Source: Robinsoniella peoriensis (GTDB lineage Bacteria; Bacillota; Clostridia; Lachnospirales; Lachnospiraceae). Taken from it: 64,000 bases of DNA. Both the position numbers and the translations under genes were made by a program. Positions 43,470 through 63,156 of this stretch are shown piece after piece. Numbering within the stretch: position 1 is the stretch's first letter; each line of letters begins with the position of its first letter. The notes under the pieces are model-generated. The model made no database searches and was not told the origin of the DNA. It saw nothing but the letters and a program-made list of their open reading frames with translations. The stretch is taken from assembly GCF_000797495.1 (NCBI RefSeq), contig NZ_JTGN01000002.1, positions 496,001 through 560,000 of the forward strand. Reading direction: 5' to 3'.

Positions 43470-43498
43470 TTGACAAAATAAATATATTATGTTAAAGT
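43470..43498 (+). promoter_or_regulatory. Promoter of the Tad-like operon
   Basis: TTGACA (43470-43475), 17-base spacer, TAAAGT (43493-43498). It gives a long leader (about 225 bases) with hairpins AACAAG/CTTGTT (near 43603-43622) and GTGTGAT/ATCGCAC (near 43636-43651) before the first pilin-like gene. Confidence 0.6.
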
Positions 43499-43729
43499 GT
43501 GGATATACATCTAAATGATATAAATTCTGGCATATCGCCAAAGGTTTTCCCTATTTTGTAACAAGAAGGATTTTTAACGCAAATAACAGCAGTAATCATT
43601 ATAGAAACAAGCGATAACACTTGTTGTTTTAATAGTGTGATAAATCGCACAATTATAAACGAAGCTAGAATAGTCTCTGATTTTTATAGGGATTTTCTAT
43701 ATAAAAATATGGAAAGGAGGAATATGCCT

Positions 43730-43909
43730 ATGAAAGCATTTCTGGAGGAATATGGTATTATCATTATCGTTGCAATTATTGCGCTGATTATGGTATTACT
43801 GGCAACGCCACTGGGACATTACATCGGTGAAGCAGTCGCTGCCACCGTCACAAATTTCATTACCAAATCTGGTATCTCAAGCCCCCCTCAAATAACAATG
43901 CCCTGGTAG
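43730..43909 (+). CDS. Flp-like mini-pilin 1
   Basis: 59 residues from ATG 43730, with AAAGGAGG nine bases upstream (ATG 43724 is too close). The N-terminus MKAFLEEYGIIIIVAIIALIMVLL is one hydrophobic helix preceded by Glu7-Tyr8, the pair found in Flp pilins just after the processing site. Only two residues precede the would-be mature N-terminus. The rest is a short polar tail. It is the first gene of the Tad-like operon and is probably the major subunit (inference). Confidence 0.65.
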   Translation: MKAFLEEYGIIIIVAIIALIMVLLATPLGHYIGEAVAATVTNFITKSGISSPPQITMPW

Positions 43910-43972
43910 TACAATTAATTGCAGGGACCGTCTCAGATCCCTGCATAACAAGGAAAGAAAGGAGGAAGCAGT

Positions 43973-45043
43973 ATTAATAATACAGTTGATTTTTGGACCT
44001 TTAAAGAAGAAAATTATGGACCTTTCTTAAAGTATGTTAAAGATGACCTGGTGACAGACATCAATTATAATGGCAGGGATACCTGGATAGATCACCTGGA
44101 AAAGGGGCGTTTTCTTGCAGAGGACATCGAAGTTACATCAGATTTTATCAATCAGTTCAGTATGCGTCTGTCCAATGCGGTCAGCGCAAATTTCAATAAA
44201 AATGAAAATCTGCTGGAGGCAGAGACGAAAACTCTGCGGATATCAATAATACACGAAAGTGTAGCCAGTACTGGCCGCTCTGTATCAATCCGTAAAACAG
44301 ATCCCTGCAGACGGCTGACAGAGTCGTTGATGCAGAAAACAGGATATTGTTCGGGAGAGATGATGGCATTTTTAGAAAATGCCGTAAAAGCTCATATGAA
44401 TATTATTATGTGTGGACTTCCGGGATCGGGAAAGACGGAATTGCTGAAATATCTGACCGGGTTTGTACCTGCGAATGAAAGAGTAATCACGATTGAGGAT
44501 AATCTGGAAATTCATTATGCAGATATTAATCCAGGCAAGGATGCGGTGGAACTAAAAGTAAATGAAAAATTGTTTGATTATACCAAGGCAATAAAAGCAT
44601 GTCTGCGCCAAAATCCAAAGTGGATTATGTTGTCAGAGGCCAGATCGGCGGAAGTGAAATATTTGTTGGAAGCAATGAGTACGGGTACCCATTGTCTGAC
44701 CACGCTGCATACAGATGATGTTCGCAAAGTGCCTGATAGAATTCAGAATATGATGAAAGATTCCCTGGCTGCGAACCGCATGGAAAACGACATATACTCA
44801 TTTGTGAATGTGGGTGTTTTATTAAAAAAGCGAATGAATCATGTAGGAGTGATACAGAGATATATCGAACAAATCTGTATCTATAACAGGAATGAAGTTA
44901 GAGGGGTGAATGAAATTATGGTGCTTGCTGAAAATGGCGAAATGACAAGTCGTAAACTTCCTCATAATATTGAGAGAAAATTTACACAGGATAATATCGA
45001 AGATCCCTTCCGGGTACGAGGGAGGTATGAACATTGGAAGTGA
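43973..45043 (+). CDS. CpaF/TadA-type secretion ATPase, probable ATT start
   Basis: 356 residues if started at ATT 43973, which has GGAGG seven bases upstream. No ATG, GTG or TTG lies between the upstream in-frame stop (43946) and GTG 44051, and a 44051 start would cut off YGPFLKYVKDDLVTDI, the usual CpaF N-domain. Walker A GLPGSGKTELL lies at ~148-155, the Walker B region is WIMLSEARSAEVKYLL and the His box is TGTHCLTTLHTDDV. It powers assembly of type IV-like/Flp filaments at the membrane. It overlaps the next gene by 10 bases. Confidence 0.82.
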   Translation: MNNTVDFWTFKEENYGPFLKYVKDDLVTDINYNGRDTWIDHLEKGRFLAEDIEVTSDFINQFSMRLSNAVSANFNKNENLLEAETKTLRISIIHESVASTGRSVSIRKTDPCRRLTESLMQKTGYCSGEMMAFLENAVKAHMNIIMCGLPGSGKTELLKYLTGFVPANERVITIEDNLEIHYADINPGKDAVELKVNEKLFDYTKAIKACLRQNPKWIMLSEARSAEVKYLLEAMSTGTHCLTTLHTDDVRKVPDRIQNMMKDSLAANRMENDIYSFVNVGVLLKKRMNHVGVIQRYIEQICIYNRNEVRGVNEIMVLAENGEMTSRKLPHNIERKFTQDNIEDPFRVRGRYEHWK

Positions 45044-46536
45044 GTGCGAAAAGAAAACCGGGTATTTGTAACTGGCTCAGCCCCCAAAATTTAGTGTATG
45101 AAGTAAACAGGTATGGGTATCATTTTTCCCTGTTGGGTTTTTGGAAATTTTATCTGCTGGCGCTCGTCAGTATTTTTATCATAAGTATGATTTATCAATT
45201 ACAATTGCCTTATATTCTGGCTGTATCAATTTTTTCTCTTTTTCTCTCCCCTTTTATTATTTTAAATACGTATAAGAATATGTATCAGCAGAAGCGATTT
45301 CAGGATGTGACAAATTATCTGGAGCAGTTACTGTATTCCTTTCGTAAAGGACCAAAGATTCTCTCGTCTCTCCAGGATACTCTGGCCGTATTTCCTGAAG
45401 GCCAGATGCATGACCATATTCTGATGGTTATGGACGCCATTCAGAATAAACCGCTTGAAGAGAGCGGGGATCTATACCGTGATGCATTTTCTGCAATGGA
45501 AGAGGCTTACGGATGCCGCAGACTGCGTCAGGCGCATGAATTCTTAATAAAGGTAGAGAGCTTTGGCGGAGAATTCAGCGGAGCAATCGATATTTTACTG
45601 GAAGACCGAAGGCTGTGGATAGAAAGAGTATATGAGTTGGAGAAGGACAGAAGTAATCTAAAAGTGAAAATAACCATTTCACTGGCACTTTCATTTCTGA
45701 TTTGTGGATTGACCATGTTTATGCTCCCAAAGGATTTTCAGACTTTACACAATGGTTTATCACAAGCAGCAACGATGTCGTTGATTATCAGCAATATTAT
45801 CATCTGGTATATCGGACAGAAGAAACTAAGTGTGGACTGGCTAAACGATCTGGAAGAGAACCGGGAGGAGATCAAGAGATGTTACGATCGTGTAATGAAA
45901 CATAATCCAAAAAAAGAAAGAAAAAAGTCCTTTATAATGGCGGGATTCTGCATGATGATAGGTGCATCAGGAATCATACTGCAAAATATCCCGGTAACGA
46001 TCATTGGAGCATCAGCTGTTATTTATGCACTGATGCAGCCGGGGATGGGACTTAAGATGGCTAAAAAAAGAATGGTAAGGGAAGTTGACAAGGCATTTCC
46101 GGTATGGATTATGGAGATATCCCTGCTGTTACAAACGGACAATCCGCAGGTGGCGTTAACAAAGTCTGTTGACCGGGCACCTTATGTACTACAGGAAAGC
46201 TTACAAAAACTGGTGAGTGAAATGGAAAAAAATCCGGCAGCCATTAATCCGTATCTGGGATTTATGACTGAGTTTGATTTGCCGGATGTTCAGTCTTTCC
46301 TTCGTATGTTATATTCCATGTCTGAATCAGGAAGTGAAGACTTTAAAAAGCAGATTATATTTATGGTGGAGCGTAATAACCGGCTTTTGGATAAGTCGGA
46401 AAGAATTATAAATGAAGATAAGACAGCGGGGACAGGCATGTTGGTATTGATTCCAATGGTAACGGGATCCCTGAAAATGATGACGGACCTGGGAGTCTTT
46501 CTTATGTCTTTACTTAGTTTAACACAGGGAATGTAG
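45034..46536 (+). CDS. TadB/TadC-like (T2SF-domain) membrane platform protein, fused
   Basis: 500 residues from TTG 45034, with GGAGGT seven bases upstream; it overlaps the ATPase stop. Two similar halves are visible: paired membrane segments near 33-75, a cytoplasmic helical domain with FRKGPKILSSLQDTLAVFP, segments near 215-265, then a second set (~300-345) with a second cytoplasmic domain (WIMEISLLLQTDNPQVALTKSV) and a final segment near 470. Canonical Tad loci have separate TadB and TadC; here one polypeptide seems to supply both. It would be the inner platform driven by the adjacent ATPase. Confidence 0.72.
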   Translation: MEVSAKRKPGICNWLSPQNLVYEVNRYGYHFSLLGFWKFYLLALVSIFIISMIYQLQLPYILAVSIFSLFLSPFIILNTYKNMYQQKRFQDVTNYLEQLLYSFRKGPKILSSLQDTLAVFPEGQMHDHILMVMDAIQNKPLEESGDLYRDAFSAMEEAYGCRRLRQAHEFLIKVESFGGEFSGAIDILLEDRRLWIERVYELEKDRSNLKVKITISLALSFLICGLTMFMLPKDFQTLHNGLSQAATMSLIISNIIIWYIGQKKLSVDWLNDLEENREEIKRCYDRVMKHNPKKERKKSFIMAGFCMMIGASGIILQNIPVTIIGASAVIYALMQPGMGLKMAKKRMVREVDKAFPVWIMEISLLLQTDNPQVALTKSVDRAPYVLQESLQKLVSEMEKNPAAINPYLGFMTEFDLPDVQSFLRMLYSMSESGSEDFKKQIIFMVERNNRLLDKSERIINEDKTAGTGMLVLIPMVTGSLKMMTDLGVFLMSLLSLTQGM

Positions 46537-46548
46537 AGGAGGTGTCAG

Positions 46549-46704
46549 ATGAAAGCAGTTTTAGAGGAATATGCATATGTCATAATAGCAATTGTTTTGG
46601 CGGGACTGATATTAATGTTTTTATATAGTGGCTTGAAAGAAGGTGGATTTTTAGAAGTGCTGGCAAGAAGGTTTTCCAGCATGATAGCTGGGACAGCCAT
46701 ATAA
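46549..46704 (+). CDS. Flp-like mini-pilin 2
   Basis: 51 residues, MKAVLEEYAYVIIAIVLAGLILMFLY and a basic tail. GGAGG lies 10 bases before the ATG, and the gene starts 12 bases after the platform gene. It shares MK-x-x-LEEY with the peptide at 43730, including Glu7-Tyr8 before a single hydrophobic helix. Probably a minor subunit. Confidence 0.6.
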   Translation: MKAVLEEYAYVIIAIVLAGLILMFLYSGLKEGGFLEVLARRFSSMIAGTAI

Positions 46705-46730
46705 TTTCAACTAACGCGGGAGGCATTGGG

Positions 46731-47855
46731 ATGAAAGTTTTTATACAGGAGTATGGGAAAGTGCTGATAATTGCCCTAATTGGTATTATCAGCATGATGA
46801 TTTTATTGTTTCATGGAGCATTTATGGATATGGTGGATAGTCTTAAGCCTGCGAATCCGGATGTACGGAATGAGTTTACAAGATTGAAACTGGGCAGCCT
46901 GTCAAAAAGAGAAAAGCCAAAGTTTGTCTTCTCTTCTCCAGAATTAAGACTTGGGGATAAGATCCTGATCAGAGATCTGGTGGTAAGTGCAACCGATGCT
47001 GACGGAAATGATCTGAAAGAGCATATCCGGTATTACCTGGAGGATGGGACACCGGTAACATCTGATTATGAAATCAGGGCAGTTCAGTTTGGGACGATGT
47101 CTTTTCGGTTTCGTGCAGAGGATTCCCAGGGGCTTGCTGCAGATAAGAAATTTGCCATAGCAATCGTAAATAATCCGGATAGTCTGGAGGCAGCAAAATT
47201 ATTGGAAGAATGGGATATTGGACAGGCAGCGGAAACGGTGTCGGCAAGGATTTTTGAGTACGATTATCAGGCTGGCGGCACTTTTACAAAAAGATATGTA
47301 CTTACCATTAATGGAGAAGGAGCAGCAAAGGCTTATGGAAGTCCAGAACAGATACCATGGTTGAAAAATTATGCAGATAAGATAACGGAATGTGAGATTG
47401 CACGTTCTGTCCGAACAGAGGATGTCAGTTATTGGTTTAGTGAATGCTCCAGACTGGAAGTGATTCCGCAGTTCTATGGAGTCCGCAAAATGCAGGGGAC
47501 TTTTCAAAATTGCAAAGCCATAAAATATGGTTACATCGAAAATACAGTGGAAAATATCAGCCAGGCTTTTAAAGGATGCACCGAAATGACTTCAATGGGA
47601 CCCATCTTTTCTTCCGTAAGTATTATGGATGAAGCTTTCTCAGGATGTGTAAAGCTGAGGGGAGAATTGTTAATTGAGGCAGATCCGTTAAGCTACCAGG
47701 ACTGCCTGGAGTTGACGGCAAGCCAGACGGGCGGAGTTTCTTTGAAAATATATGCTGCAAATGAAATCAATAGTTCCACCTTAAAAGAGATGGTAATACA
47801 GGAGATTATAAAGTTGAATGGATCTAATGTAAGATATTTGGGTATAAAGGAATAG
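46731..47855 (+). CDS. Pilin-like protein with Ig-like and LRR ectodomain
   Basis: 374 residues. The N-terminus MKVFIQEYGKVLIIALIGIISMMILL repeats the Glu7-Tyr8/helix pattern of the mini-pilins. An ectodomain follows: an Ig- or cadherin-like part (~65-145, ATDADGNDL, SFRFRAEDSQGLAADKKFAIAIVN) and a BspA-like leucine-rich region (~225-335, VSYWFSECSRLEVIPQFYGV, QAFKGCTEMTSM, EAFSGCVKLRG). It would be a tip adhesin displayed by the filament (inference). Similar LRR modules occur in the giant protein downstream, suggesting related surface roles. Confidence 0.65.
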   Translation: MKVFIQEYGKVLIIALIGIISMMILLFHGAFMDMVDSLKPANPDVRNEFTRLKLGSLSKREKPKFVFSSPELRLGDKILIRDLVVSATDADGNDLKEHIRYYLEDGTPVTSDYEIRAVQFGTMSFRFRAEDSQGLAADKKFAIAIVNNPDSLEAAKLLEEWDIGQAAETVSARIFEYDYQAGGTFTKRYVLTINGEGAAKAYGSPEQIPWLKNYADKITECEIARSVRTEDVSYWFSECSRLEVIPQFYGVRKMQGTFQNCKAIKYGYIENTVENISQAFKGCTEMTSMGPIFSSVSIMDEAFSGCVKLRGELLIEADPLSYQDCLELTASQTGGVSLKIYAANEINSSTLKEMVIQEIIKLNGSNVRYLGIKE

Positions 47856-47915
47856 ATCACGTTAAAACACATGCTGGGGATGATATAAAAGAAGGTTTTG
47901 GAGATGGAGGCACTT

Positions 47916-48020
47916 ATGAAGGATATCTTAGAAGAATATGGTCAGACAGCCGCAATTGTTATAATTGGATTGTCAATGGTGAAGATTTTGTGGGCTGTGA
48001 TGGGGGCATTGTCGTACTAA
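47916..48020 (+). CDS. Flp-like mini-pilin 3
   Basis: 34 residues, MKDILEEYGQTAAIVIIGLS plus MVKILWAVMGALSY. GGAGG lies seven bases before the ATG. It keeps Glu7-Tyr8-Gly and one hydrophobic helix with no tail. It is too short for most gene callers, but the ribosome site, operon position and shared motif support it. Confidence 0.55.
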   Translation: MKDILEEYGQTAAIVIIGLSMVKILWAVMGALSY

Positions 48021-48041
48021 ATTAGAGATAAGGGAGAGAAT

Positions 48042-48377
48042 ATGAAAGGAATTGTTGAATTTTTTATGATTACCATTACTTTTGCGTTACTTGCAATTTC
48101 AGGAACCGCATATATTACGGCATCTATCAATACCGCTAATGCAAGAGACTATCATGCATCTATCATAAATGAGTTGGAAGCCAGTAATTTTAATCAGGAG
48201 ATAATAGAAAATCTATATACCGATGCGGCAGATAAAGGTTATGTTCTTGAACCAATACTTCCTTATGAAATAGAAGATTATGAAAAAACAGCTGAGGTTG
48301 ATCTTAATTATAACTACGATATTGGAATTTTAAATATAACAAATGAACAACATTCAATACGTGGTTATGCAAGATAA
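48042..48377 (+). CDS. Small pilin-like/TadE-like membrane-anchored protein
   Basis: 111 residues. An N-terminal hydrophobic helix (MKGIVEFFMITITFALLAISG) has Glu6 but no Tyr, followed by a ~80-residue polar ectodomain (ASNFNQEIIENLYTDAADKGYVLEPILPYEIEDYEKTAEVDLNYNY). The pattern suits a TadE/TadF-like minor pseudopilin. GGGAGAG precedes the ATG. The next gene begins 12 bases downstream. Confidence 0.55.
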   Translation: MKGIVEFFMITITFALLAISGTAYITASINTANARDYHASIINELEASNFNQEIIENLYTDAADKGYVLEPILPYEIEDYEKTAEVDLNYNYDIGILNITNEQHSIRGYAR

Positions 48378-48388
48378 GGGAGGATTAT

Positions 48389-48979
48389 ATGAAAGCGGGA
48401 ATCATTACATTTATCAGCATCCTGATTTTACTTTTGACAGGAAGCATTATTTATACTGTTTCAGGAAGAAATATCAGAAAATCGGAACTGGAAAAAAGTC
48501 TTTCCAATGCAATTGAACAGACAATGAAAGTTAAATATCTGGATCATACGTATCCAATCAGGGATCAGGACGAACTGATTGCAGATTTAACCGGGAATTT
48601 ATTTGCACAAATAACCAGTGATGCAGATATTGATATTCATATTAAAAATATAGACTTTGAAAATGGTTGTATGGATGTAGAGGCCGTAGAACACTTTAAA
48701 TATTTTAACGGGAATGAGGGGAAGATCGCAGTAAGGAAAACAGTGATATTTGAGCAGTTTCAGGATCCAAATGACAAGTTCTATCAGGTCAGATTTTTGA
48801 ATAAGGATGGGTCACTGTTTCGGCAGATACAGGTCTACCATGAGGGGCGCCTGACAGCACCACAACCGGAACCTGCCAATTTGATTCGGTGGGAATTAAC
48901 AGATGATACTGCATGGGATGGGGATTTCAGCAAAATCGTAGTAACAGGAGACATGACATTTCGTGCGGTATGCAGTTAG
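48389..48979 (+). CDS. Membrane-anchored exported protein of the Tad-like operon
   Basis: 196 residues. One N-terminal hydrophobic helix (MKAGIITFISILILLLTGSI), then an ectodomain with the short conserved-looking piece YLDHTYPIRDQDELIADLTGN and a beta-rich C-terminal half. Topology resembles minor pseudopilins. I do not recognise a family. The giant surface-protein gene starts 12 bases after it, so the whole group 43730-56142 reads as one transcription unit without an internal terminator. Confidence 0.55.
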   Translation: MKAGIITFISILILLLTGSIIYTVSGRNIRKSELEKSLSNAIEQTMKVKYLDHTYPIRDQDELIADLTGNLFAQITSDADIDIHIKNIDFENGCMDVEAVEHFKYFNGNEGKIAVRKTVIFEQFQDPNDKFYQVRFLNKDGSLFRQIQVYHEGRLTAPQPEPANLIRWELTDDTAWDGDFSKIVVTGDMTFRAVCS

Positions 48980-48990
48980 GGGATTATATT

Positions 48991-51900
48991 ATGAAAAGAA
49001 AACCAGGAAAAATTATTATAGCAGCTACATTAATATTTGCGATGTGTATGCCGGAAACCGCCTACGCAGTCAACAAAAGAGTACCGGAGATATCAGTTGA
49101 ATCTGTGACAGAGAAGGAAAAGATAATAGAAAAGGAAAATGAAACGCAAACAACAGAGAAAAAGGATAAGGAGGGGGAACAGGATAAGAGGGAACAAGAT
49201 AAGAGGGAACAAGATAAGAGGGAACAAGATAAGAAGGAACAGACAGGGGATGATGCTCTGAAAATTATTTTTACAGATGAAATAAAGGGAGAATTTGACA
49301 AGGGAAAGCTTATCATTACAGGTACTGGAAAGATACCTGATTACGAAAAAGGAAGTTCGCCTCTGAAAGAAGTTATGAAAAATATAACCTCCATACAGGT
49401 AGGCGAGGGTATTACAGAAATAGGGAATTATGTGTTTGCTGATTGTGTTAATGCAGAGAAGGTTGAACTTCCGAAAACACTTGTTGCCATAGGTAATTAT
49501 TCTTTCGCTTATAACGTAGCCCTAAAAGAAATAAATTTTCCTGAAAATGTGGCAGAGATTGGAGCAGGGGCATTTTTTAATGGGATTAACCTCAGCAATA
49601 CGGAATACCCCATAAGTCTAAAAACAGTAGGCGAAGCAGCTTTTTACAATTGTTATCATAACAAGACATTCACAGATCAGGAAATTAAAATTGGTGCTGA
49701 AGCATTCTATTTATGCCGGAATCAAGTTGTTTTTACTCCGGATAAAGCATACTTTTTGGAAAATGGAAGCCGGGTACTATTTGGAAATATATACAAGGCA
49801 GCTGCAGATTTGGCAATAAAGCTGGATAGTGAAGAGACTGGGAAAGTTTTATCACAATTGGAGGTGGAATATAATCAGACGTTTGAAACTGTTAATGACT
49901 ATTTTGACTATCTTATAGAACTTGAGCAATATGGAATAAAAATAAGTTACAGACTGGAAGTACTGCAGAGTGTGAATGAGTCTCATAAGGAAACCGAGTC
50001 TGAGTCAGAGAGCGAAACAACAACAGTTACAGAACGCCAGGAAATAGAATCTAATACCGAAACGAATTCAGAAGTAAAATTAGAAGCTGATTCAAAAGCT
50101 GATTCAGAATCTCTCTCAGAAGCTGATCCAGAAAACAAAACGCAAACGAACACACAAGCCAATTCGAAACAAACAAAGAGTGAAAAGCAACTTATTCAAT
50201 TTTCAGAGAACATAAGGGGTGAATTCCTGGATGGAGTACTTACGGTAACCGGGAAAGGAAATCTCCCTGATTTATCAATGTATACCCAAAACCCCATCGA
50301 TGATATAAAGGCTGAAATTGAAACTATTATTATAGAAGAAGGAATAACTGCTATAGGTGATTTTACATTTCGTAATTGTTTAAATGCAGAGATACTGCGA
50401 TTGCCGGATTCTTTAAAAGTTATTGGTAAATATGCTTTTGCTGACAATTACTGTCTTTCAAAAGTACGGTTTCCCGGCAATCTTGAAGTTATCAAAGAGG
50501 GAGCGTTTAGTAAGAATATTAACCTTCAGGCAGAGAGTTTTCCAGGTTCTATGCAGAAAATAGAAGGATATGCATTTTACAACTGTTTTAAGGTCAGAGA
50601 AAAGGATGCAGAAGGTAAAGGAATTAAGATAAATCAAGATGCATTTTTCCAGTATCCAAGCTATGTAAAGCTTGAAATTCAATCATATGGAAAAACAGAT
50701 TCCAGAGGTAATCGCAACTATGTTGGAAGCCTGTATTACAATGCCCTGCAGATGTCTAAGGAATTACAGGATTCTGAAATTCAGGATATCCTGAAAAAGC
50801 GCAGTGATGAATCCGGAAAGAAATACAAAGATCTCAAAAGTTATTATGACGATTACATTAATAAGAATTATCCGGAAGCAAATATCAAATTTAATGTTTC
50901 TATTGTAGATAAAAACAATGGTTTAAAAAATGCTATTTCTCCTTTTGCAGCTACAACCAGAAGTGCATCAACACAGGCAGAACTGGAAACTGCAATTAGA
51001 CAGTCCGGCAGTGGTGATATTATCAATCTTTCCAAAAATATGACATTAAAAAATGTTGTTATCACAAATAAAAATATTACGATTAGGGCAGCCGGCGGCA
51101 ACCGGACAATCACGCCTGCCAATGGAAACAATGTTACTGCATTTATTATAAATGGTAACAGCAAAGTAACATTTGCAGCAACGGGAACCCATCTGGCATC
51201 CAACGGATCCGTGGCAGATAATAAACTATATATCGGTGCAAGTGCGTCAAAAGGGACTGGAAACTGTATCAATTCCAGTAATATCATAGTTCAGGGAACG
51301 GCTAGAACTACAATCAACAGTAACGTTCTTGTGCGCAACAGCCGCTATCATACCGTATATGGAGATCCAAATACAACTATAGTATTGAATGGTGGAAGCA
51401 TTATGAATACGAAAGAGATCACAGCTGTAAACGGCGGTGGAAATACCTTTGGAATTGGATCTTACGGAACCATTCTGATTAAAAATGGCAAAATTTATTG
51501 TGAAAGTTCAAATCGGAAAATGCAGTATGGACAGGGCGTCCACTCCAATGGTGGTACGATAGAAGTCACTGGAGGAAGTATTTATAACTGTATCGTTGGT
51601 ATTGGGGTTAATCATGGAAATGGTGCAAACGGTGGTAATAAAGAGGATGCATATGCTAATTTTAGCGGCGGATATATCTATAATAATGATATTGGTATTC
51701 AAATAAATAACTCTATGGCAGACATTAGTTCAGTATATGTTGGATTAACATCATATGCAAATGCGGACACTTATAAAGTTTCCTCTAATGCGTCCTATGG
51801 AATATCCATATCCAACAAATCAGAAGTATGGATAGAATCCGCAGGTAGGATTTACCATACAGGGAATGAAGCCATACACAATGAAGGGACATTGGATATT

Positions 51901-54900
51901 ACAAGCAATACAAATGGTAATAGAACTAAAATATGGGGGAATGCATCATATGGTATCCGCAATACACTTACAGGTTATGTATACCTTTATGGTGTCAATA
52001 TTGATGGCGCTAAGACAGGTATTTTAAATGAGAATACCAAAAAAGATAGCTGTATGATGGAAAATTCACCTTTTTCAACGAAAGGCACGGTGATACAAAA
52101 TTGTACGTTACGAGGTGTTATGAATAACGGTAATATGGCAATTGTTACAACGGACTATGGTCTGGGCAACCGGGTAGAGATTATTAATAATGGAGGGGGA
52201 GATAAAGGTGGTGGAATTTATAATAATACTGGCAGAACCTGCTTGTTAGATGCACAAAGTGGAGATGCAGACTCTATCCGAATTAATTCTAATAAAGGAA
52301 ATTATGGTGGCGGTATTTATAATGATGGTACAATAACGATGAAGGGCACTGCTTCTGTTTCGGGAAATACAGCATCAGCAAGTGGCGGCGCTATATATAA
52401 CAATAATAGATTAATTATGAATGGCGGAAGGATATTGAATAATATTGCTGCGACTTACGGCGGCGGTATAATGAATAAAAATACCCTGAATGTTACCGGG
52501 GGCGAGATCGGGGGAAACCGGGCAGCTGCTAACAGTGGCGGTGGAATATGTAATGATGGCGGCACCCAGGGAGTTGCTACAGTCTTAACCATATCAAATG
52601 GTAAAATATATGGTAATACTTCCAATAAAGGATCCGGAATTGAACAGCATGGTGCATATAATCCCAAAATGACTGTAAAAGGCGGGTGGATATATGGAAA
52701 TGCTGGCGGCTATGGGATACATAATGACGCCGGAACAGTAGAAGTGAAAGATGGAGCAGGTATGGGATTCTCATCATGGACAAGCAGTACCTCCTTTACA
52801 CCAAGTAATAATGGAGAGGGAAATATCTATAATAAGGGAAATCTCACCGTTCAGGGAAGTGCAAATGCATGGATTTGTCTAGCTAGTACAACTAATTTTA
52901 ATATAAATAATGTAGGAATTTGTACGATTAATTCATCAGGAAATTTGCCGGTTATAACAGGGAAGTCCACTCATGCAATAGATAATTCAGGACAAATGTC
53001 AATAGAGAAAGTTCTGGTTTTAAATGCACAAGCCGGAATTTACAATAGTAAGAATATAAATATAAATGGTGGAGGAATTTACGGATGCACTGCTTATGGG
53101 GTATACAATACAGTTTCCGGAATCGTAAATATGGGGAACGCAGATATCCATGATAATAAAAACTACGGGACGGGGGCAGGGGTTTATAATCTAGGTACCT
53201 ATACTATGACATCAGGATTTATTCGTAATAATACTTCATCAGGCGGCGGCGGTGTGCAAAACAATGGGATATTCAAATTGAATGGGGGAGAGATTAAAGA
53301 TAATAGCTCAGGCAGATTAGGCGGAGGTGTCAGGAATGATGGGACATTTACCATGACTGGTGGAGGCATTAATGGAAATACCGCAGCCAACGGAGGCGGC
53401 GGAATCTTTAGCGGAAGAAATAATGAACTGACCATATCTGGAGGTACCATTAAAAATAATAAAGTTTCCGCTGGGAATGGCGGCGGAATCTATACCGATA
53501 CCCATGATACGAAGACATTAAGTCTCACAAATACAACGATAACGGGTAATGCAGCTACAGGAGGTAATGGAGGTGGAATATATTACAATGCCAATGTTAC
53601 ATTAGAAAGTAATAATATTAACAGCAATACAGCAGTGACTGGTGGCGGCATTGTCTTCGGAGGACCTGTGAATACGATGAAATCAGGTTCTATATCTAAT
53701 AATACAGCCCTTTCCTGGGGTGGAGGTATCCAGGTGTTGTCAGGTAATACACTGGTATTAAATGATGCATCTATTTATGGAAATACTGCTCCCGGTGATG
53801 GAGGGATAAACAATGATGGATCAATCCGAATGACTGGGGGAACGATCCATAGTAATAAATGTAAAGCCGGCAATACCGGTGGCGGTATCAGGCTTGGAAA
53901 TGCTGCTGCATCCTTTACAATGACCGGAGGCAGAATCTATGGAAATAGCGGGTATGGAATTGTTAATATGTTAGGTACTGTAAATTTGGAGAATGCTTCA
54001 TCTTCCAGTAATGGATGGTCTTTAATCGGATTCGAAAAATTTGAAAATGCATCGGGTGGACTTACTCAGGCACAGGCAGAATCTAAACAAAATTCAATCG
54101 GTGCAATTTACAATGCAGACCGATTAAACATTAAAGGCAGGTCACGTATATACAGTGGCGCCACCTATGGAATTTATAACCGTGGTAAATTAAATATGTT
54201 TAGCGGTGCAAATTGTACATTATCTGGTAATTCTGATGTTGGAATTTATAATGGAAGCACTGGTACAATGACAATGGGTGAGGAAAATCAGATCTGGCTT
54301 GCAAAAACAGGGTTGAAAAACGAAGGAACTGCAACTTTGAACGGTGGCACTATCACAGAAAATACAAAAAGGGGATTAGAGAATGCAGGAACCTTTAATC
54401 TATATTCCGGAGGTATCTTACATAACGGCAAAGAAATTACATCCAAATTCTTTCCCAATGGAGTCACCGGAGCTCATGAGATGGGTAATAGTATATATCA
54501 AAATGGTATTTTAAATGTAAAGGGAAATCCAAATGTGACACAGGATATATTTTTAACACCGAATCATTTCATTACTGTGGAGAATACGTGCGAAGCGGCT
54601 TTTATTACATCCATGAAGGAAGAGGATACTTTTAAAGGCAGAATATTGGCTAACTACAAATTCAATACAGAAAAGCAAACAGGAAAGTATTCTTTGGAGG
54701 CTGATACGAAAGAATTCGCAGACGCAAAGGGAATCGTGATTGATGATCAGACCGGTGTAGATAGGGACTATCCGTATCAGGTATTATTGGATGGTAAAAG
54801 AGTTCTGATTAATTATCTGCCGAATGGGGGAACAGGGAAGATGGCAGGGGATGTTGTGCCGTTAGAGGCTGATTATACATTGCGGGAGAATGAGTTTGTG

Positions 54901-56142
54901 TTTAATAGCCATTCATATGCGGGATGGAGTATTAGTCCTTCAGCGTACCCTGGTAATTCTAATTTTAAACCTGGGCAAATAGTAATACCTTCAGACAGCT
55001 TTAGAAATAACATGAATCCAGTTAGTAAGAAGACTTTTGAAGTTCAGTCATATAAAGAGAATATATTATCAGTATCATTATTGGCTGAAACATTCGGAAA
55101 GCCGGTAGAAAGAGCACTAAATGATGTTGAGTATGACTACCAAGTGGATCTAAATGCTATTTGGGATGAGATGCCTATTGTTGATACTACAATAATGGAA
55201 TTTTATGAAGGTGAATCTGTAACTAAGAAGCAATTAATGGAGGAAATTTATTACTCGGAACTGGGTGCAACAGACAAAGAGGATGGAGCAAGAGAGAAAA
55301 ATCAAGAATATTTCCCACACCTTCTTGATGAGAAAGTAAAAATTATAGAAGTTGAGTATTATCCTATACAAAATGGGTATAAACCTAATCCGAGTAAAAT
55401 TATTTATGATAAGGATATGCCAAATGACTATTTTTTTGATACTTACAATAAAAAGGGAATGGCGTTGAATGAAGAAGTTAACCACAAACTGACATTTCGG
55501 GTAGAAGATAGTGCAGGGAATGTTACCAGCAAAATAAGTGTGGTAAGAGTCTTATATAACAATTATCCTATTTTAAAAGTGCCAGAAAATCTTATTATGA
55601 CGAATGAAGAGCTTAGAATGAACCCATTGACTATTAATGATTTGTTAAGCTATGTAAAAGCAGATGATATCGAAGATGATATGGCTAAAAGACAAGGTCT
55701 AACTGATATCGATGGAAATGTAATAAATATCCAAGATAAAGTAAAGATAATCAGTATACAGGATGAATCCAATAAAATAATTCAACCAGAGGAAATTCAT
55801 GATGTGGGAGAGTATTTTGTTACGTACTCTGTGATGGATCGATTTGGTAAAGAAACGCAAAAGACGATGAAGTTAACCTCTGTAGAACCGGCTGAATTAA
55901 TTGCTGATAATATTGAATATATAAGATTTATATCTTTACAGTATTTGGATACGTTGGATGAGCACTCAAAATGGGATAAAGAAGAACTTAGAACAATGCT
56001 AAAAGATGAAATACCAGTTGAAACTTATAATTTTACTCATGAAAATATACTTAAAATAAAAGAGTTAATGAAAAATTTAAAGAGTAAGCAAGATTTTGAA
56101 CATGCAATTGAGATTATAAAAAAGCGGTATATGAATAAATAA
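48991..56142 (+). CDS. Giant exported LRR/beta-helix surface protein
   Basis: 2383 residues from ATG 48991, which yields a clean signal peptide (1-26, ending AYA). Order: charged repeats (~63-85), BspA-like LRR module (~89-225), Ser/Glu/Thr-rich linker (~330-400), a second LRR module resembling the first (~400-540), a very long right-handed beta-helix (~650-1860) made of GGGIYNNG-type rungs, an InlB-type B repeat (YLPNGGTGKMAGDV, ~1943-2000), DUF5011-like folds (~2066-2300) and a helical tail. There is no LPXTG and no C-terminal membrane helix, so retention may depend on the Tad-like filament or the wall (inference). Probably an adhesin or glycan-binding protein. Confidence 0.75.
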   Translation: MKRKPGKIIIAATLIFAMCMPETAYAVNKRVPEISVESVTEKEKIIEKENETQTTEKKDKEGEQDKREQDKREQDKREQDKKEQTGDDALKIIFTDEIKGEFDKGKLIITGTGKIPDYEKGSSPLKEVMKNITSIQVGEGITEIGNYVFADCVNAEKVELPKTLVAIGNYSFAYNVALKEINFPENVAEIGAGAFFNGINLSNTEYPISLKTVGEAAFYNCYHNKTFTDQEIKIGAEAFYLCRNQVVFTPDKAYFLENGSRVLFGNIYKAAADLAIKLDSEETGKVLSQLEVEYNQTFETVNDYFDYLIELEQYGIKISYRLEVLQSVNESHKETESESESETTTVTERQEIESNTETNSEVKLEADSKADSESLSEADPENKTQTNTQANSKQTKSEKQLIQFSENIRGEFLDGVLTVTGKGNLPDLSMYTQNPIDDIKAEIETIIIEEGITAIGDFTFRNCLNAEILRLPDSLKVIGKYAFADNYCLSKVRFPGNLEVIKEGAFSKNINLQAESFPGSMQKIEGYAFYNCFKVREKDAEGKGIKINQDAFFQYPSYVKLEIQSYGKTDSRGNRNYVGSLYYNALQMSKELQDSEIQDILKKRSDESGKKYKDLKSYYDDYINKNYPEANIKFNVSIVDKNNGLKNAISPFAATTRSASTQAELETAIRQSGSGDIINLSKNMTLKNVVITNKNITIRAAGGNRTITPANGNNVTAFIINGNSKVTFAATGTHLASNGSVADNKLYIGASASKGTGNCINSSNIIVQGTARTTINSNVLVRNSRYHTVYGDPNTTIVLNGGSIMNTKEITAVNGGGNTFGIGSYGTILIKNGKIYCESSNRKMQYGQGVHSNGGTIEVTGGSIYNCIVGIGVNHGNGANGGNKEDAYANFSGGYIYNNDIGIQINNSMADISSVYVGLTSYANADTYKVSSNASYGISISNKSEVWIESAGRIYHTGNEAIHNEGTLDITSNTNGNRTKIWGNASYGIRNTLTGYVYLYGVNIDGAKTGILNENTKKDSCMMENSPFSTKGTVIQNCTLRGVMNNGNMAIVTTDYGLGNRVEIINNGGGDKGGGIYNNTGRTCLLDAQSGDADSIRINSNKGNYGGGIYNDGTITMKGTASVSGNTASASGGAIYNNNRLIMNGGRILNNIAATYGGGIMNKNTLNVTGGEIGGNRAAANSGGGICNDGGTQGVATVLTISNGKIYGNTSNKGSGIEQHGAYNPKMTVKGGWIYGNAGGYGIHNDAGTVEVKDGAGMGFSSWTSSTSFTPSNNGEGNIYNKGNLTVQGSANAWICLASTTNFNINNVGICTINSSGNLPVITGKSTHAIDNSGQMSIEKVLVLNAQAGIYNSKNININGGGIYGCTAYGVYNTVSGIVNMGNADIHDNKNYGTGAGVYNLGTYTMTSGFIRNNTSSGGGGVQNNGIFKLNGGEIKDNSSGRLGGGVRNDGTFTMTGGGINGNTAANGGGGIFSGRNNELTISGGTIKNNKVSAGNGGGIYTDTHDTKTLSLTNTTITGNAATGGNGGGIYYNANVTLESNNINSNTAVTGGGIVFGGPVNTMKSGSISNNTALSWGGGIQVLSGNTLVLNDASIYGNTAPGDGGINNDGSIRMTGGTIHSNKCKAGNTGGGIRLGNAAASFTMTGGRIYGNSGYGIVNMLGTVNLENASSSSNGWSLIGFEKFENASGGLTQAQAESKQNSIGAIYNADRLNIKGRSRIYSGATYGIYNRGKLNMFSGANCTLSGNSDVGIYNGSTGTMTMGEENQIWLAKTGLKNEGTATLNGGTITENTKRGLENAGTFNLYSGGILHNGKEITSKFFPNGVTGAHEMGNSIYQNGILNVKGNPNVTQDIFLTPNHFITVENTCEAAFITSMKEEDTFKGRILANYKFNTEKQTGKYSLEADTKEFADAKGIVIDDQTGVDRDYPYQVLLDGKRVLINYLPNGGTGKMAGDVVPLEADYTLRENEFVFNSHSYAGWSISPSAYPGNSNFKPGQIVIPSDSFRNNMNPVSKKTFEVQSYKENILSVSLLAETFGKPVERALNDVEYDYQVDLNAIWDEMPIVDTTIMEFYEGESVTKKQLMEEIYYSELGATDKEDGAREKNQEYFPHLLDEKVKIIEVEYYPIQNGYKPNPSKIIYDKDMPNDYFFDTYNKKGMALNEEVNHKLTFRVEDSAGNVTSKISVVRVLYNNYPILKVPENLIMTNEELRMNPLTINDLLSYVKADDIEDDMAKRQGLTDIDGNVINIQDKVKIISIQDESNKIIQPEEIHDVGEYFVTYSVMDRFGKETQKTMKLTSVEPAELIADNIEYIRFISLQYLDTLDEHSKWDKEELRTMLKDEIPVETYNFTHENILKIKELMKNLKSKQDFEHAIEIIKKRYMNK
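49177..49236 (+). repeat. 15-bp tandem repeat near the N-terminus of the giant protein
   Basis: About four copies of GAACAAGATAAGAGG encode EQDKR units. In-frame slippage would change the length of the charged stalk. Confidence 0.85.
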
Positions 56143-56189: not shown

Positions 56190-56985
56190 TAGGGCATGGC
56201 CCTGTTCTCCATTGAGGAGTTTTTCGTTGATCCGAAAAACGGAACTTTGGAGAACAAATAAACCACCTGCTCTGCGGGTGGTTGGAATAGCTTTAGCGTT
56301 GTGTAAAAAACCTCCAATGATATAATAAAAATAGGTTCGCCAACCGTTTTATAAATCAAAGGAGGTAGTCCAAATGGACAATAATAGTTTAGCACACACA
56401 AAGTGGAATTGTAAGTACCATATAGTTTTTGCACCGAAATATAGAAGAAAAATTATATATGGCGAGTTGAAAAAGGATATTGCAAATATCTTAAGTATGT
56501 TATGCAAGCGCAAAGAAGTGCATATTGTGGAGGCAGAAATCTGTCCAGATCATGTTCATATGTTAGTAGAAATACCGCCAAAGATAAGTGTGTCAGATTT
56601 TGTAGGGTATTTAAAGGGAAAAAGTACCTTAATGATATATGAGAGACATGCTAATCTCAAATATAAGTATGGAAATAGACACTTTTGGTGCAGAGGATAC
56701 TATGTAGATACAGTAGGAAAAAATGCAAAAAAAATAGAAGAGTATATTCGGAATCAACTAAAGGAAGATTTGGAATATGATCAAATGTCTTTGAAGGAGT
56801 ATATTGACCCGTTTACGGGTGAGCCAGTAAACAAAAGCAAAAAGAAATAAGCCCAAGGGGCTTAGCAGGTAACTGACGTTGCGGCTGGCGAACCTTTCGA
56901 TGAGTCTTTAGACTCCAGTACCGGAAACGAGCCCTTATAGGGCGGAAAACAAACCACCGGCTAAGCCGGTGGTACTGATTGGAAA
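56190..56985 (+). mobile_element. IS200-type insertion sequence (tnpA only)
   Basis: A Y1 transposase gene flanked by subterminal hairpins. Left: GTTCTCC/GGAGAAC enclosing GTTTTTCG/CGAAAAAC (about 56198-56257), then AACCACC/GGTGGTT (about 56260-56284). Right: CCACCGGC/GCCGGTGG (about 56954-56973). No terminal inverted repeats and no tnpB, as expected for IS200. Exact ends are uncertain. It separates the Tad-like and TasA/SipW halves of the island. Confidence 0.75.
56374..56850 (+). CDS. tnpA: IS200/IS605-family Y1 transposase
   Basis: 158 residues, the full length for the family. The HUH metal motif lies in CPDHVHMLVEIPP (~65-77) and the probable catalytic Tyr in RGYYVDTVGKNAKKIEEYI (~112-130). 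N-terminal WNCKYHIVFAPKYRRK and HFWCRGYY are typical. It moves single-stranded DNA by cleaving at subterminal hairpins. AAAGGAGG precedes the ATG. The frame is intact, so the element may be active. The 5' nested hairpin probably insulates it from outside transcription, as known for IS200. Confidence 0.93.
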   Translation: MDNNSLAHTKWNCKYHIVFAPKYRRKIIYGELKKDIANILSMLCKRKEVHIVEAEICPDHVHMLVEIPPKISVSDFVGYLKGKSTLMIYERHANLKYKYGNRHFWCRGYYVDTVGKNAKKIEEYIRNQLKEDLEYDQMSLKEYIDPFTGEPVNKSKKK

Positions 56986-57104: not shown

Positions 57105-60100
57105 ATGAAGACAAGAATGAAAAAAAGATTAACCGCAATCCTTTTATGTATGGCCATGATCGTGACTACATTAGGTTCCAATGGAGTAGTACTGGCGGCG
57201 GATAATACTGATCATACAGAAGTCCCGGGGACGGCAGCAGAGGCTGAACAGGTCAACGAAGTAAGCCCGGCAGCAGAGACGATTGAAAGTGAAGCGGCTG
57301 CTGCTCAGACGGAACCTGTCGTAATGACAGAGATTCAAACAGAAGCTGCAGCAGTACCGGAAACGGAAATGAATTCCGAAGCAGGAACTGAAAATATTCC
57401 GGAGACAGAGATGTCCAGCGAAACAGAAGCAGAGAGCCAGGAAGAAATGCAATCCGAAATGACATCGGAGACAACAGAAACTGCTTCAACAGAAACAGAA
57501 AGCAGACCGGAAGAAATGCAGTCAAAATATCTTTTTGAAAATGAAGAGATGACAGCAGTAGTAGAATTGATGAATTCGGATACAGTTCCAGCGGATGCGG
57601 TGTTAGAGGTAAAGCCAATCTTAAATAAAATGATTTCAGATAACAGCCCTGAAACAGATAAAGCTGAAAAAGCAGAGTATGACAAAATTAATACTTTATT
57701 AAATGAAAAAGCGGAAAAAGAAGCAGCACCAATCGATGGATTTAATGCTTATGCAATTCAGTTTGAAAAAGATGGTGTGATCTATCCGGTCAAAGATGAA
57801 ATGAAAGTTTCCATTAATTTTAAAAACGCAGTTCTTCCTGAAACCTTCAGAACGGAAGAAATAAATTTAAAAGCGGTTCAGGCGCAGGTATTAAAGTTTA
57901 CGGCAGATGAAAATGAAGCTGGAAAAACAAATGTAATTGATTTGAAAGAAAAAACAACAGTTTTAAATTGTAATTCCGATTTTGCAGTTAATGAAGTAGC
58001 ATTTGAATCAGATAATGTAAGCCAGTTCGCAATTGCTTGGAATGGTGAGGATACAACAACAGAATATACATACGATGATGACCAGGTGACGGTAAAGGCT
58101 GTTTTAAGTGAAGCGGGGATACTTCCCAGAGGAGCAGAACTGAAAGTTGTCCCGGTAGTAGACAAAGAGGAACTGGATAGAGTAGAGAGCCTGTTAAATA
58201 ACAATGCAAAAGCAGAAGATGATACAATAACAGGATTTCTGGCATATGATATTAGTTTTGTAAAAGATGGTGTTGAGGTGGAACCTTCCGGTGAAGTGGC
58301 AGTGACTATGGATTTTAAAGAAGGAGTCAAACCGGAAAAAACAACAAAGAGTAATGCTGAAAAAGCAGAAAACAATGCAGAACAGAATGTTACGGTATAC
58401 CATTTTAATGAAAATGGCAATCAGGATATAAATGTTGAAGAAATTAAACATGCCTCAGTAGATGTTAATAATAAAGCTGAAGTGGTAACAACCAATTTTC
58501 AAGTTAACAGTTTCTCAATATTTACGTTAGTTTGGAAAAATACTGCTGGTTCGGGTCAAGCGAATACAACGCAGAGTTTGAAAATTCACATTGTTGATAA
58601 AAAGGGAAATGATTTAATGAATGAACCTATTAGTTTTCAACATAAGACAGCAGTATCCTGGCCACAGGCTTCACCCAGTCAAATCAGTGAATGGATTCAG
58701 AGTGAAGATATGGATAATCATAAGACACTTGAAAATAAATCTTTTTGTCGTGCATATATGACTTCTGATTCATGGGGGGGACAAAAAGATGTCAGCAATG
58801 TAATGCTCTGGAAAAATGAAAGTAACAACGGATGGCAGGTAAAGTGGAGTTCAAATGACGAAGCATACAATGTGCAGCCAGGCGATGAATTATATTTTGA
58901 ATATACTGACAATCTTAAAACAGTTGATACCATCGACAGCAATAGCAAGGGCATTGAATTGAATATGTTTAACTATAGCGTTGATAAGCATCAGTTCTCG
59001 GGCGGGGAATGGAATGAAACTGCTGCCGGCCGCGGTGTTAAACAGGGGATGGTCCAGAATAAATTAGATGCAGATGGCTATCCTGTGTTTAGTAAAGAGT
59101 TTGGTCAGGCAATTAAAAAGTCTGAAAGTAATAAGGATCTCAGAGGAACTACTTTAAAAGAATGGTTTAATCCACAGGGGAGCTACACCACTCAGGCAAA
59201 TGCAAACCATTTATTTTTACAAAGTGTATATGATGAGAGTAAGTACTTTTACTATAGCAGTTTTGATAATTATGCTTATTTAAATCAGACAGGTGATAAT
59301 GCAGGTAATTTTACTGTTTATCAACAGATTGGAACACCGGATAATGCAAATCAATTATATTATCAGCGTGGTAACTTTATGCCGTACAATAATATAGCAA
59401 ATGGAAAACTTAGTAAAAATAAAAATTACTACGACGAACAGGGTAACCCATTAGACAAAAATGATTCCCGGTATGGAGAAGAATTATATCTTACCCAGGG
59501 AAAAACGTATCACTTTGGCATGAATATGAGCGCTTCCTTTGCACAGCCGCAAAATGGAATGGTAGATGGAAGTCCAATGGTTTTTGAATTTAACGGCGAT
59601 GATGATATGTGGGTTTTCATCGATGGCGTTCTGGTGTTAGATATTGGCGGTTGTCATGATGCCCGCAGCGGAAGCATTAATTTCAAAACAGGAGATGTAA
59701 AGGTTCAGGGAGTTGCAGATACAAATATAAAAGCTTTATTTCAGAAAGCAAAGGCAGATACCTCTAAATTTGTAGAAGGCGGGAACTATTTTAAAAACTA
59801 TACAGCTCATGAAATTAAGATATTCTATATGGAGCGTGGTGCAGGAGCATCTAACTGTAAGTTGAAATTCAATATTCCGGCAGTTCCTAAGGGAAGTGTA
59901 AATGTTACAAAAGAAATTGGTAATATAAATGAAGGATCATTCAGTGATGTAAACTTTAACTTTAAACTTTATGTAGAAGATGAAAATGGAGATGTAACGC
60001 GCGATAATGATAATACAAAGTATAGCTTGGTTACAAATGGGGCATATACACTTATTGATGGAAGTAAGATAAAAGAAATGAAGACTGACCTTAATGGCAG

Positions 60101-61148
60101 TTTTACTTTAAAACATGGTCAGACAGCTCAGTTTACCCAGTTTGATATGGGCAAAAAGTATTTTGTGGAAGAAACGGATGTTATTCAGAGCCAGTATGAT
60201 GAATTTGAAGTGAATGGTGTAAAGTTAACGACAGAGAATGGTTCTATAATTGAAGGAGACGAAGGATCAGATAAATATATTGTCAGAAGTCAGGCTTTGC
60301 TGGTTGGAACGGACCTTACCGTTAACTTTCAAAACTTCTGTACAGGAGATAACCTGCAGGATCTGGTAATTGAAAAAGTGTTAACTTCAGGATCTTCAGA
60401 AGATATTTATGAATTGACGGTTACTGTCGGAGGTCATTTATTTGAAGGTGAATTTATTCGAAATGAAGCAAAAGAAGATGAAAACCGTGAGCAGGCAGTC
60501 AAAGGAAAGATATATGTAAAAGCAGGTGATAAAATCAGGATTCCCAAGATTCCGTCAGGAACCAGTTTTGAAGTAAAGGAATCTAATTTAGATGAACTCA
60601 ATCAGGCATTTACAAAATATGATAAAGAAAACTATAAAGTAGTAAATGCAGAAGTTCTGGCGACTGATGAAAAAGCTTCCGGAAAATTATTGTTTAAAAA
60701 GAATGCAGAAGTTATTGTTACGAATACCTTGCTGTTAGGAAATTTGACAATTAAAAAGACTATAGATTCTGTAAATTATGACAATGGTGATCCGATTTTT
60801 ACATTCCAAATTAAACATTTAGAAACGGGAAAAGTGTTTGAATATACAATGCGTTTTAAAAAAGATGAAGCGTTAACACAGACAAAAACCTTTGAACTTT
60901 TACCCCTTGGAAATTATGAAATAACTGAGTTAGAAACGATTAGATATGAATGTGTAGGTGGAAATGTAAAACAAACAGAATTAAAGAAAACTGCATTAAA
61001 TCAGACTGTAGCATTTAAAAATATTCGTACGAATCCGGATAACTATTCCCATACAGATGTGGTAATTAATAAATTTACTATGGACGAAAATGGTAATATT
61101 GTAATTACTCCGGATCAGTTGGGAAAGTCAGAAAATAAAGAAAATTAA
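57105..61148 (+). CDS. Fibro-slime-domain surface protein with Cna-B-like repeats
   Basis: 1347 residues with signal peptide (1-31). A Glu/Thr/Ser-rich stretch (~33-140) is followed by two related beta domains (~145-305 and ~320-470; compare [11 protein letters not shown] with [11 protein letters not shown]). The fibro-slime domain (~610-920) contains [23 protein letters not shown], and several Cna-B/isopeptide-like beta domains follow (~930-1330: [29 protein letters not shown]). There is no LPXTG sorting signal. GAGGAGG lies before the ATG. The next gene starts 12 bases later, linking it to the TasA/SipW set. Likely a matrix or adhesive structural protein. Confidence 0.8.
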   Translation: [1347 protein letters not shown]

Positions 61149-61160
61149 GGAGTGGATAAG

Positions 61161-61727: not shown

Positions 61728-61790
61728 AGTATATTTATGTTATTTAAATGCAAAATACGACAAAAAAGTTAGAAGCTTGGAGGAAAAGAG

Positions 61791-62306: not shown

Positions 62307-62330
62307 AAAAGTATCATGGAATTATCTCTG

Positions 62331-62363
62331 TATGACCAGTGTGTGACTGGATTGTTATATACT
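62331..62363 (+). promoter_or_regulatory. Promoter with 11-bp-spaced TGTGAC repeats, copy 2
   Basis: TATGAC (62331-62336) and TGTGAC (62342-62347), then 10 bases and TATACT (62358-62363). It matches the site at 56995 in repeat sequence, spacing and distance to the -10. Confidence 0.65.
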
Positions 62364-62427
62364 GGATACATAACATAGGAAGTCGAAAAGAACTTATAAA
62401 TGGATAGAAAGAATAGGAGATAATGAG

Positions 62428-63048: not shown

Positions 63049-63087
63049 ACAACGAAAACATCATTAAATCAGCATATAATTTATTGT

Positions 63088-63131
63088 AAATATACCCCAA
63101 ATATAACACTAAATATAACCACGGATATAAT
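63088..63131 (+). promoter_or_regulatory. Promoter with AAATATA-type direct repeats
   Basis: Three copies of AAATATA(A/C)C begin at 63088, 63099 and 63111 (periods 11 and 12), followed by consensus TATAAT (63126-63131). Placement across the -35 zone suggests an activator site. It drives the last TasA-like gene. Confidence 0.5.
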
Positions 63132-63156
63132 AAAGAGAGGATAGGTAAATATAATT

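Follow-up and report, generated by a model that had tools for sequence, protein, structure and literature searches.

The 64,000-nucleotide stretch of Robinsoniella peoriensis DNA analysed here (the window; G000:C24:496001-560000, from a genome of 7.39 Mb) carries nine closely spaced, same-direction genes at about 43.7-56.1 kb, as read from open reading frames (ORFs). We consider it fairly probable that these genes encode a reduced Tad-related type IV filament machine, which likely forms a short filament of Flp-like mini-pilins and whose giant surface protein is predicted to be held at a TadF-like tip through a C-terminal (CT) domain. Sequence comparison supports the gene set, its wide conservation, the sharing of CT among giants, the near-restriction of CT to genomes with the platform, and the fusion of CT to TadF-like pilins. 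In the proposed mechanism, the ATPase and the platform would push out a short mini-pilin filament without TadZ or TadG, the TadE- and TadF-like pilins would cap the filament, CT would dock the giant on the TadF-like pilin, and the giant would act as an adhesin. The strongest arguments for this docking and display, none of them experimental, were the CT-TadF fusions and the CT proteins encoded in trans.

All components named in the original prediction (an ATPase, a double-length platform, mini-pilins, a fusion of a pilin with leucine-rich repeats (LRR), two small anchored proteins, and a 2383-residue giant) were found in one direction. Its interpretation was supported in part: a Tad-like machine of reduced form, linked with a giant surface protein, is upheld, and the assembly role and the adhesin function are more tentative, as is a machine minimal enough to need no prepilin peptidase. 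Platform homologues were retrieved from 35 of 299 genomes of the same family (46 proteins, most of them unnamed and the few named ones hypothetical). Thirty-seven loci fetched from platform genomes, together with the window, gave 38 loci in which the platform is present by construction. As the ATPase and the TadE-like gene occurred in all 38 of these platform-selected loci, the gene set is held together far beyond chance; the TadF-like gene occurred in 36 (L052 ends at a contig end, and L071 has no TadF-like gene). Among 344 genomes drawn from the order, 10 gave strong platform matches, all in the family of the window genome, and six weak matches were excluded as single-domain TadB/TadC-type proteins by score and frame length.

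A motif scan for the ATPase in a collection of species genomes yielded at least 80 named loci, which overlap with the 38 loci (e.g., L046 and L097). Among the 80 loci listed, the platform was found in 78, the TadE-like pilin in 73, the TadF-like pilin in 71, and CT in 50 (E <= 1e-3); among the 29 listed loci with at least 7.5 kb downstream, the corresponding numbers for TadE-like, TadF-like, and CT were 29, 29, and 21. Carriers among the loci listed were Roseburia faecis, Faecalicatena, Lactonifactor, Muricomes, Acetitomaculum, Anaerostipes, and Clostridium tyrobutyricum. Machine copies were also seen beside relaxase-like genes (L051 and L096) or an MT-A70-type methyltransferase-like gene (L146). 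The sequences suggest that machine copies are carried on mobile elements, and such carriage may explain the copy in Clostridium tyrobutyricum.

All coordinates given below refer to the window, and all genes lie on the + strand. The ATPase (43973..45043) matched PF00437 in Pfam with an E value of 1.3e-29, and its profile matched 2oap, VirB11, and CpaF among the PDB sequences. It matched TIGR03819 TadA of NCBIfam at 7.3e-28, which is below the curated cut-off, and the VirB11 model scored higher. PilB/GspE models and structures matched far more weakly than TadA, VirB11, and CpaF; a type II secretion or type IVa pilus identity, which calls for a PilB/GspE-type ATPase, was rejected, and the protein is of the TadA/CpaF type expected of a Tad system. 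A tree was built from 16 of the 31 aligned window-type ATPases, nine conventional CpaF proteins, and five type IV pilus (T4P) ATPases (two being the same protein), without VirB11; in it, the window-type ATPases formed one clade (99/99) adjoining conventional CpaF (97/98) and apart from the T4P ATPases, with a long-branch warning from the tool. The first ATG, GTG, or TTG in the ATPase frame is at 44051. The homology of the relatives extends further upstream, and an ATT at 43973-43975 follows AGGAGG at a distance of 7 nt; this ATT is therefore the probable, unusual start codon. The ATPase and platform genes overlap or abut, with a median gap of -9 nt (range -113 to 83; n = 38 loci).

The platform gene (45034..46536) is of double length, with a TadB-like N-terminal half and a second half of the same kind, as judged from hhalign, an AlphaFold2 model, and T2SSF matches of its relatives. 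The window protein had no Pfam match of its own, and 11 of 63 homologues matched T2SSF weakly (best 1.2e-4). The AlphaFold2 model (predicted local distance difference test score, pLDDT, 87.9) contained two copies of a long-helix unit, and these predicted helical repeats may be read as GspF-like. By hhalign, the N-terminal half matched TadB at 2.3e-7 and the C-terminal half at 4.4e-4, while the C-terminal half matched TadB at 9.4e-5 and TadC at 0.002; the yardstick, TadB against TadC, was 1e-6. A clear profile match to TadB was thus obtained for the N-terminal half only. A search of the platform profile against PDB sequences gave at best a designed coiled coil at 0.0032, which was taken as chance. 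In phmmer searches with the genome's own TadB and TadC, none of the ORFs of the 38 loci was matched. As the original prediction held, separate TadB and TadC are missing at the locus, because one double-length gene of 500 aa replaces both. The order of the halves would fit a secondary fusion of tadB and tadC, the C-terminal half being ambiguous.

Three mini-pilins are encoded at the locus. Mini-pilin 1 (43730..43909; 59 aa, MKAFLEEYG...), the probable main subunit, is preceded by a ribosome-binding site (RBS), AAGGAGG, 9 nt upstream; mini-pilin 2 (46549..46704; 51 aa) and mini-pilin 3 (47916..48020; 34 aa) were recognised by the same N-terminal pattern and an RBS. The same type of N-terminus (MKVFIQEYG) opens the pilin-LRR fusion (46731..47855; 374 aa), in which an Ig-like part, seen by eye (Big_3 0.16 in Pfam), accompanies LRR (LRR_5, E 1e-5, under the curated cut-off). 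Long mini-pilin fusions numbered 21, in 21 of the 38 loci; a length near 374 aa was found in the window and L046 (364 aa) only, with LRR checked in that of the window alone, and the 374-aa pilin-LRR form is local. Counterparts of mini-pilin 1 just upstream of the ATPase numbered 37 in 34 of the 38 loci, and conventional Flp recovered three of them (E 3e-4 to 0.003). Matches of the mini-pilins to Flp_Fap and Flp1_like of Pfam were weak, as was the match of their profile to conventional Flp (probability 66%). In L051, two tandem mini-pilin genes (3491-3661 and 3717-3887) encode an identical protein sequence. For position counts, 110 mini-pilin N-termini with an RBS and the pattern were taken from the 38 loci. 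The pattern fixes hydrophobic residues at positions 4-5 and Y/F/W/H/N at position 8, so these positions hold by construction. Twenty-three of the 133 RBS-bearing small membrane ORFs were off-pattern, some being clear variants (one residue longer, or another residue at position 8).

The TadE-like minor pilin (48042..48377; 111 aa) was named from its place and form and by a hidden Markov model (HMM) in the loci of relatives, and the TadF-like minor pilin (48389..48979; 196 aa), which ends in an InlB-type repeat, by an AlphaFold2 model and an HMM. Both are conserved small proteins with a single helix. Neither window protein had a Pfam match, and the genome's own TadE genes recovered one ORF in the 38 loci, at 0.002. 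The TadF-like HMM had drawn in 27 ORFs longer than 400 aa during iteration and was rebuilt without long ORFs. The TadF-like model (pLDDT 93.0) consisted of a helix (2-50), a second helix (60-74), and three strands, followed by an InlB-like domain, and its predicted topology is pilin-like. With starts picked by rule, all 75 TadF-like proteins in the alignment had a hydrophobic stretch beginning at residue 1-4; 67 of the 75 had no other in-frame start codon upstream, and 32 had a stop within five codons. Position 7 was Gly or Ala in just 50 of the 75. The TadE-like proteins, read from the first possible start, were hydrophobic by residue 8 in 100 of 115, a count that includes some wrongly trimmed alignment rows. 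The TadE- and TadF-like pilins thus appear mostly to have no hydrophilic leader.

The last gene of the locus (48991..56142) encodes a giant of 2383 aa, predicted to be Sec-exported from a signal-peptide-like N-terminus seen by eye. It matched LRR_5 (1.7e-45) and Beta_helix (6.8e-6; a right-handed beta-helix) in Pfam and the LRR adhesin HupY of NCBIfam at 3.2e-21, far under the cut-off of that model; no LPXTG-type anchor was seen by eye at its C-terminus. Its CT domain (55912..56139; RFIS..YL.TL...SKW), the proposed docking domain, was delimited from a 24-row alignment (A1), from which the doubtful L068 and L078 were excluded. Among 27 ORFs longer than 400 aa, 26 matched loosely the motif RFIS..Y..TL...SKW, relaxed from a stricter first pattern, at 32-116 residues from the C-terminal end. 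No Pfam family matched CT convincingly, and in the window giant NCBIfam gave no name to the CT region. Nine proteins were compared in Pfam, and their bodies differed: the window giant has LRR_5 and beta-helix, L047 and L055 have ChW with beta-helix, and L051, L057, and the L151 fusion have InlB-type repeats; L046, L061, and L074 matched nothing at E <= 0.001. By sequence, CT is a shared C-terminal domain on otherwise different giants and is newly recognised here.

CT was found in 31 of the 299 family genomes, namely in 30 of the 35 platform genomes and in one of the 264 without it (G001, 74% complete). Eleven platform genomes had contributed no row to the CT profile; six of these had CT, against one of the 264 others. 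In the order draw, CT was found in seven genomes, all among the 10 with strong platform matches (G108, G522, and G593 lying outside the CT profile), and in none of the 334 others. A giant was called in 27 of the 38 loci. Three of the 11 loci without one are cut by a contig end (L052, L054, and L073), three are second loci of giant-bearing genomes (L080-L082), three (L050, L056, and L059) have a CT protein elsewhere in the genome (L095, L094, and L093, respectively), and two (L065 and L071) look complete, although their genomes yielded no CT protein. The CT proteins of G038, G122, and G143 (L095, L093, and L094, respectively) stood without a machine gene in the fetched 12-14 kb. A G110 locus is broken, and L096 looks like its remaining end. 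At L094:1363-7512, a 2049-aa CT protein away from machine genes is followed by a 982-aa exported-looking protein. In L135 and L151, one ORF has a TadF-like start and a CT end. The giant gene lies between the TadE and TadF genes in L057, L058, L074, L075, and L079 (that of L079 without CT) and upstream of the ATPase in L060, L063, L077, and L078. ATPase and platform homologues that never accompany the giant, one of the cases that would have refuted the original prediction, did not come up: these homologues occur with giants that are adjacent, inside the operon, in trans, or fused.

On contig C4 (L013), the genome has a conventional Tad locus that is complete, with two A24 peptidases, CpaF, and TadZ, TadB, TadC, Flp, and TadE/F types, the latter five named by gene order and form. 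T4P-type ATPases were found on C25, C19, and C20 and T4P peptidases on C25 and C19. A partial T4P locus on C20 (L014; PilT-like, PilC-like, and pilin-like) stands beside TasA-like and surface-protein genes. Because the genome holds a complete ordinary Tad locus plus T4P genes, the window set represents a second system of this cell, and a divergent one. A conventional Tad locus that uses the window pilins, the case that would have overturned the original prediction, did not come up; the C4 locus has its own Flp, TadE-type, and TadV genes. The statement that no TadV or TadZ is visible held for the locus and failed for the genome, which carries four PF01478 (A24) peptidase genes, none at the window locus, and the complete C4 set. 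Searches with the TadZ and TadV of C4 gave no match in any of the 38 loci, and no search was made for TadG. A24 peptidases were present in 74 of 74 family genomes tested (35/35 with the machine, 4/4 further machine genomes, and 35/35 others, of which G195 has a weak single-domain platform match), and in the machine genomes none lies near the machine by the given coordinates. The absence of a peptidase from the locus proves nothing, because A24 genes occur in all genomes tested with or without the machine; likewise, that none of the 39 machine genomes was without A24 is uninformative with the 35 others also all positive. Processing of the mini-pilins in trans, by a peptidase encoded elsewhere, is possible.

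Two accounts of the subunits were weighed on the mini-pilin N-termini. One, an ordinary reduced Tad pilus in which the A24 peptidase of a conventional Tad/T4P locus would remove a nine-residue leader, MKxxxxEYG, by cutting behind Gly9, has a chance somewhat short of even. It draws on the ubiquity of A24 and on position 9, which was Gly in 99, Ser in 7, Ala in 2, Thr in 1, and Arg in 1 of the 110 N-termini (Gly/Ala in 101). Position 7 was Glu or Gln in 93, and eight conventional Flp leaders from this and related genomes end in Gly/Ala with Glu at +5 (consensus end F-L-x-E-E-x-G/A). The residues beyond the proposed cut fit such a leader poorly, however, with Pro directly after position 9 in 9 of 110, K/E/D in 30 of 110, and Glu at +5, counted from the Gly9 cut, in only 3 of 110; the early hydrophobic stretch and position 7 of the TadF-like pilins also argue against it. 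Pfam profiles aligned the mini-pilins weakly in both registers, Flp1_like placing Gly at the cut and Flp_Fap placing L047 in the opposite register, for consensus positions that we take to be those of the two families. In the other possible reading of these N-termini, Glu-Tyr-Gly would correspond to what we take to be the Glu5-Tyr6-Gly7 motif of mature Flp, without a leader. In 44 of the 110 mini-pilins, an in-frame stop within five codons upstream rules out a leader extended by more than five residues. A machine operating without any prepilin peptidase, in which subunits would be made mature from a Met-Lys directly before the assembly helix, assembled by the ATPase and the fused TadB-TadC platform, and loaded with giants through the C-terminal docking domain on the TadF-like tip, is thinkable and rather doubtful, as plainly leaderless mini-pilins are weakened by the Gly/Ala at position 9 and the likeness to conventional Flp leaders. 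For peptidase borrowing, the systems of Bifidobacterium breve (PMC6916266) and MSH pili (PMC6668835) are possible precedents, as far as the available parts of these sources describe them.

Several observations weigh against the favoured machine with a giant held at its tip. The C-terminal half of the platform fits TadB better than TadC by hhalign, and Foldseek of the platform model gave no PDB match at E <= 0.001. Foldseek of the TadF-like model returned no pilin; its three matches at E <= 0.001 were all InlB B-repeats. The CT association in the family draw is biased favourably, with 24 of the 30 CT-positive platform genomes having supplied rows of the CT profile, and G108, one of the six CT genomes that supplied none, was weak at 4.6e-4. 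The Fisher values computed allow neither for kinship nor for the origin of the profile. CT was not found in five of the 35 platform genomes (G008, G034, G066, G168, and G201); in G034 and G066, the locus breaks off inside the giant. A third TadF-CT fusion may be present in L068, in which the TadF part is clear and CT is seen by motif only, with no match to the CT profile. A pseudopilus of the type II secretion kind in a monoderm, whose short filament would drive Sec-exported CT giants through the wall and release them, would account for trans-encoded clients that have their C-terminal domain in common, for very short subunits, and for a window giant in which no LPXTG-type anchor was seen by eye. 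We regard it as unlikely, as the CT-TadF fusions of L135 and L151 join the client to a pilin, so that display fits better than release, and several giants have surface-type modules (LRR_5, ChW, and InlB repeats). It is very improbable that the machine and the giant share only an operon and a history, with CT as a general cell-wall or surface-binding domain. The complete-looking L065 and L071, with no CT protein recovered from the genome, would agree with this, but the scarcity of CT where the platform is missing (1 of 264 genomes of the family draw, 0 of 334 of the order draw), CT proteins in trans where the machine exists, and the CT-TadF fusions speak against it.

The locus is flanked by a truA-like gene on one side and an IS200-type transposase (56374-56850) on the other. 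Downstream of the transposase, at 57105-63765, are what we take to be TasA/CalY-like proteins and a SipW-like signal peptidase in a biofilm-matrix-like cluster, along with a 1347-aa protein with DUF7601 and PA14 matches. A hairpin of about eight pairs was seen on the + strand (43920..43945) in the gap between mini-pilin 1 and the ATPase; a scan whose counts did not exceed chance marked it as a terminator-like element for the - strand alone, and its sequence is not conserved in relatives. Its role in controlling subunit dosage would be speculative. Promoter-like and terminator-like counts across the locus were at the chance level of the scan, no Rfam riboswitch was found upstream of the locus, and the PHROGs comparison gave nothing useful.

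The available part of a 2019 review asks whether the Tad ATPase-platform complex is stable or works alone, without TadZ or TadG (PMC6916266). The machine family, present in gut bacteria such as Roseburia faecis, looks like a natural version of that experiment. It also offers a clean way of testing if a type IV filament can dispense with the processing of its prepilins, and CT can serve as a marker for the giant surface proteins that such a machine would handle. No earlier description of this machine was found in the part of the PMC literature searched, a scope that excludes most subscription papers and all preprints.

Among known systems, the monoderm Tad or type IVc pili of Bifidobacterium breve and Micrococcus luteus, as described in the available part of PMC6916266, share with the window machine a CpaF/TadA-type ATPase, Flp-size subunits, two minor pilins of the TadE/TadF type (TadE- and TadF-like in the window machine), and the lack of a secretin, and the B. 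breve prepilin peptidase is encoded at another locus (PMC6916266). The window machine differs from them in that a single double-length gene stands for the two platform genes, its operon holds several mini-pilins, a giant with the CT domain is present, and no TadZ was found; in window-type loci, most TadE-/TadF-like pilins also have no recognisable hydrophilic leader. The conventional C4 system shares the gene logic, and its CpaF recovered the ATPase in 38 of 38 loci; it alone has two TadV-type peptidases, TadZ, separate TadB and TadC, and an Flp leader with a Gly end and Glu5. A reduced Tad in gut/oral Bacillota is also known from Bulleidia extructa, whose 13-gene operon includes tadV along with TadE, TadF, and TadG of the ordinary kind, according to the available part of PMC12786226. 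Likewise from the part available, the Kil pilus of Myxococcus xanthus is a Tad pilus with variable domains at its tip, which the minor pilins present (PMC12075869). It differs in being diderm and in having minor pilins with predicted peptidase sites and with the tip domains as part of them, whereas the window machine has a separate Sec-exported giant with a proposed docking tail. The pilins of MSH pili have ordinary leaders. MSH loci have no prepilin peptidase of their own, as far as the available part of PMC6668835 states; they thus resemble the window as peptidase-less loci in genomes with a peptidase elsewhere and differ in being type IVa-derived. Archaeal two-domain platforms likewise join two platform domains in one protein, in the order TadC-like then TadB-like (PMC6668835, available part), whereas the N-terminal half of the window platform is TadB-like. 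Because separate TadB and TadC are absent and TadZ was not found, the locus should not be classed as a standard Tad pilus, yet it most likely works like one.

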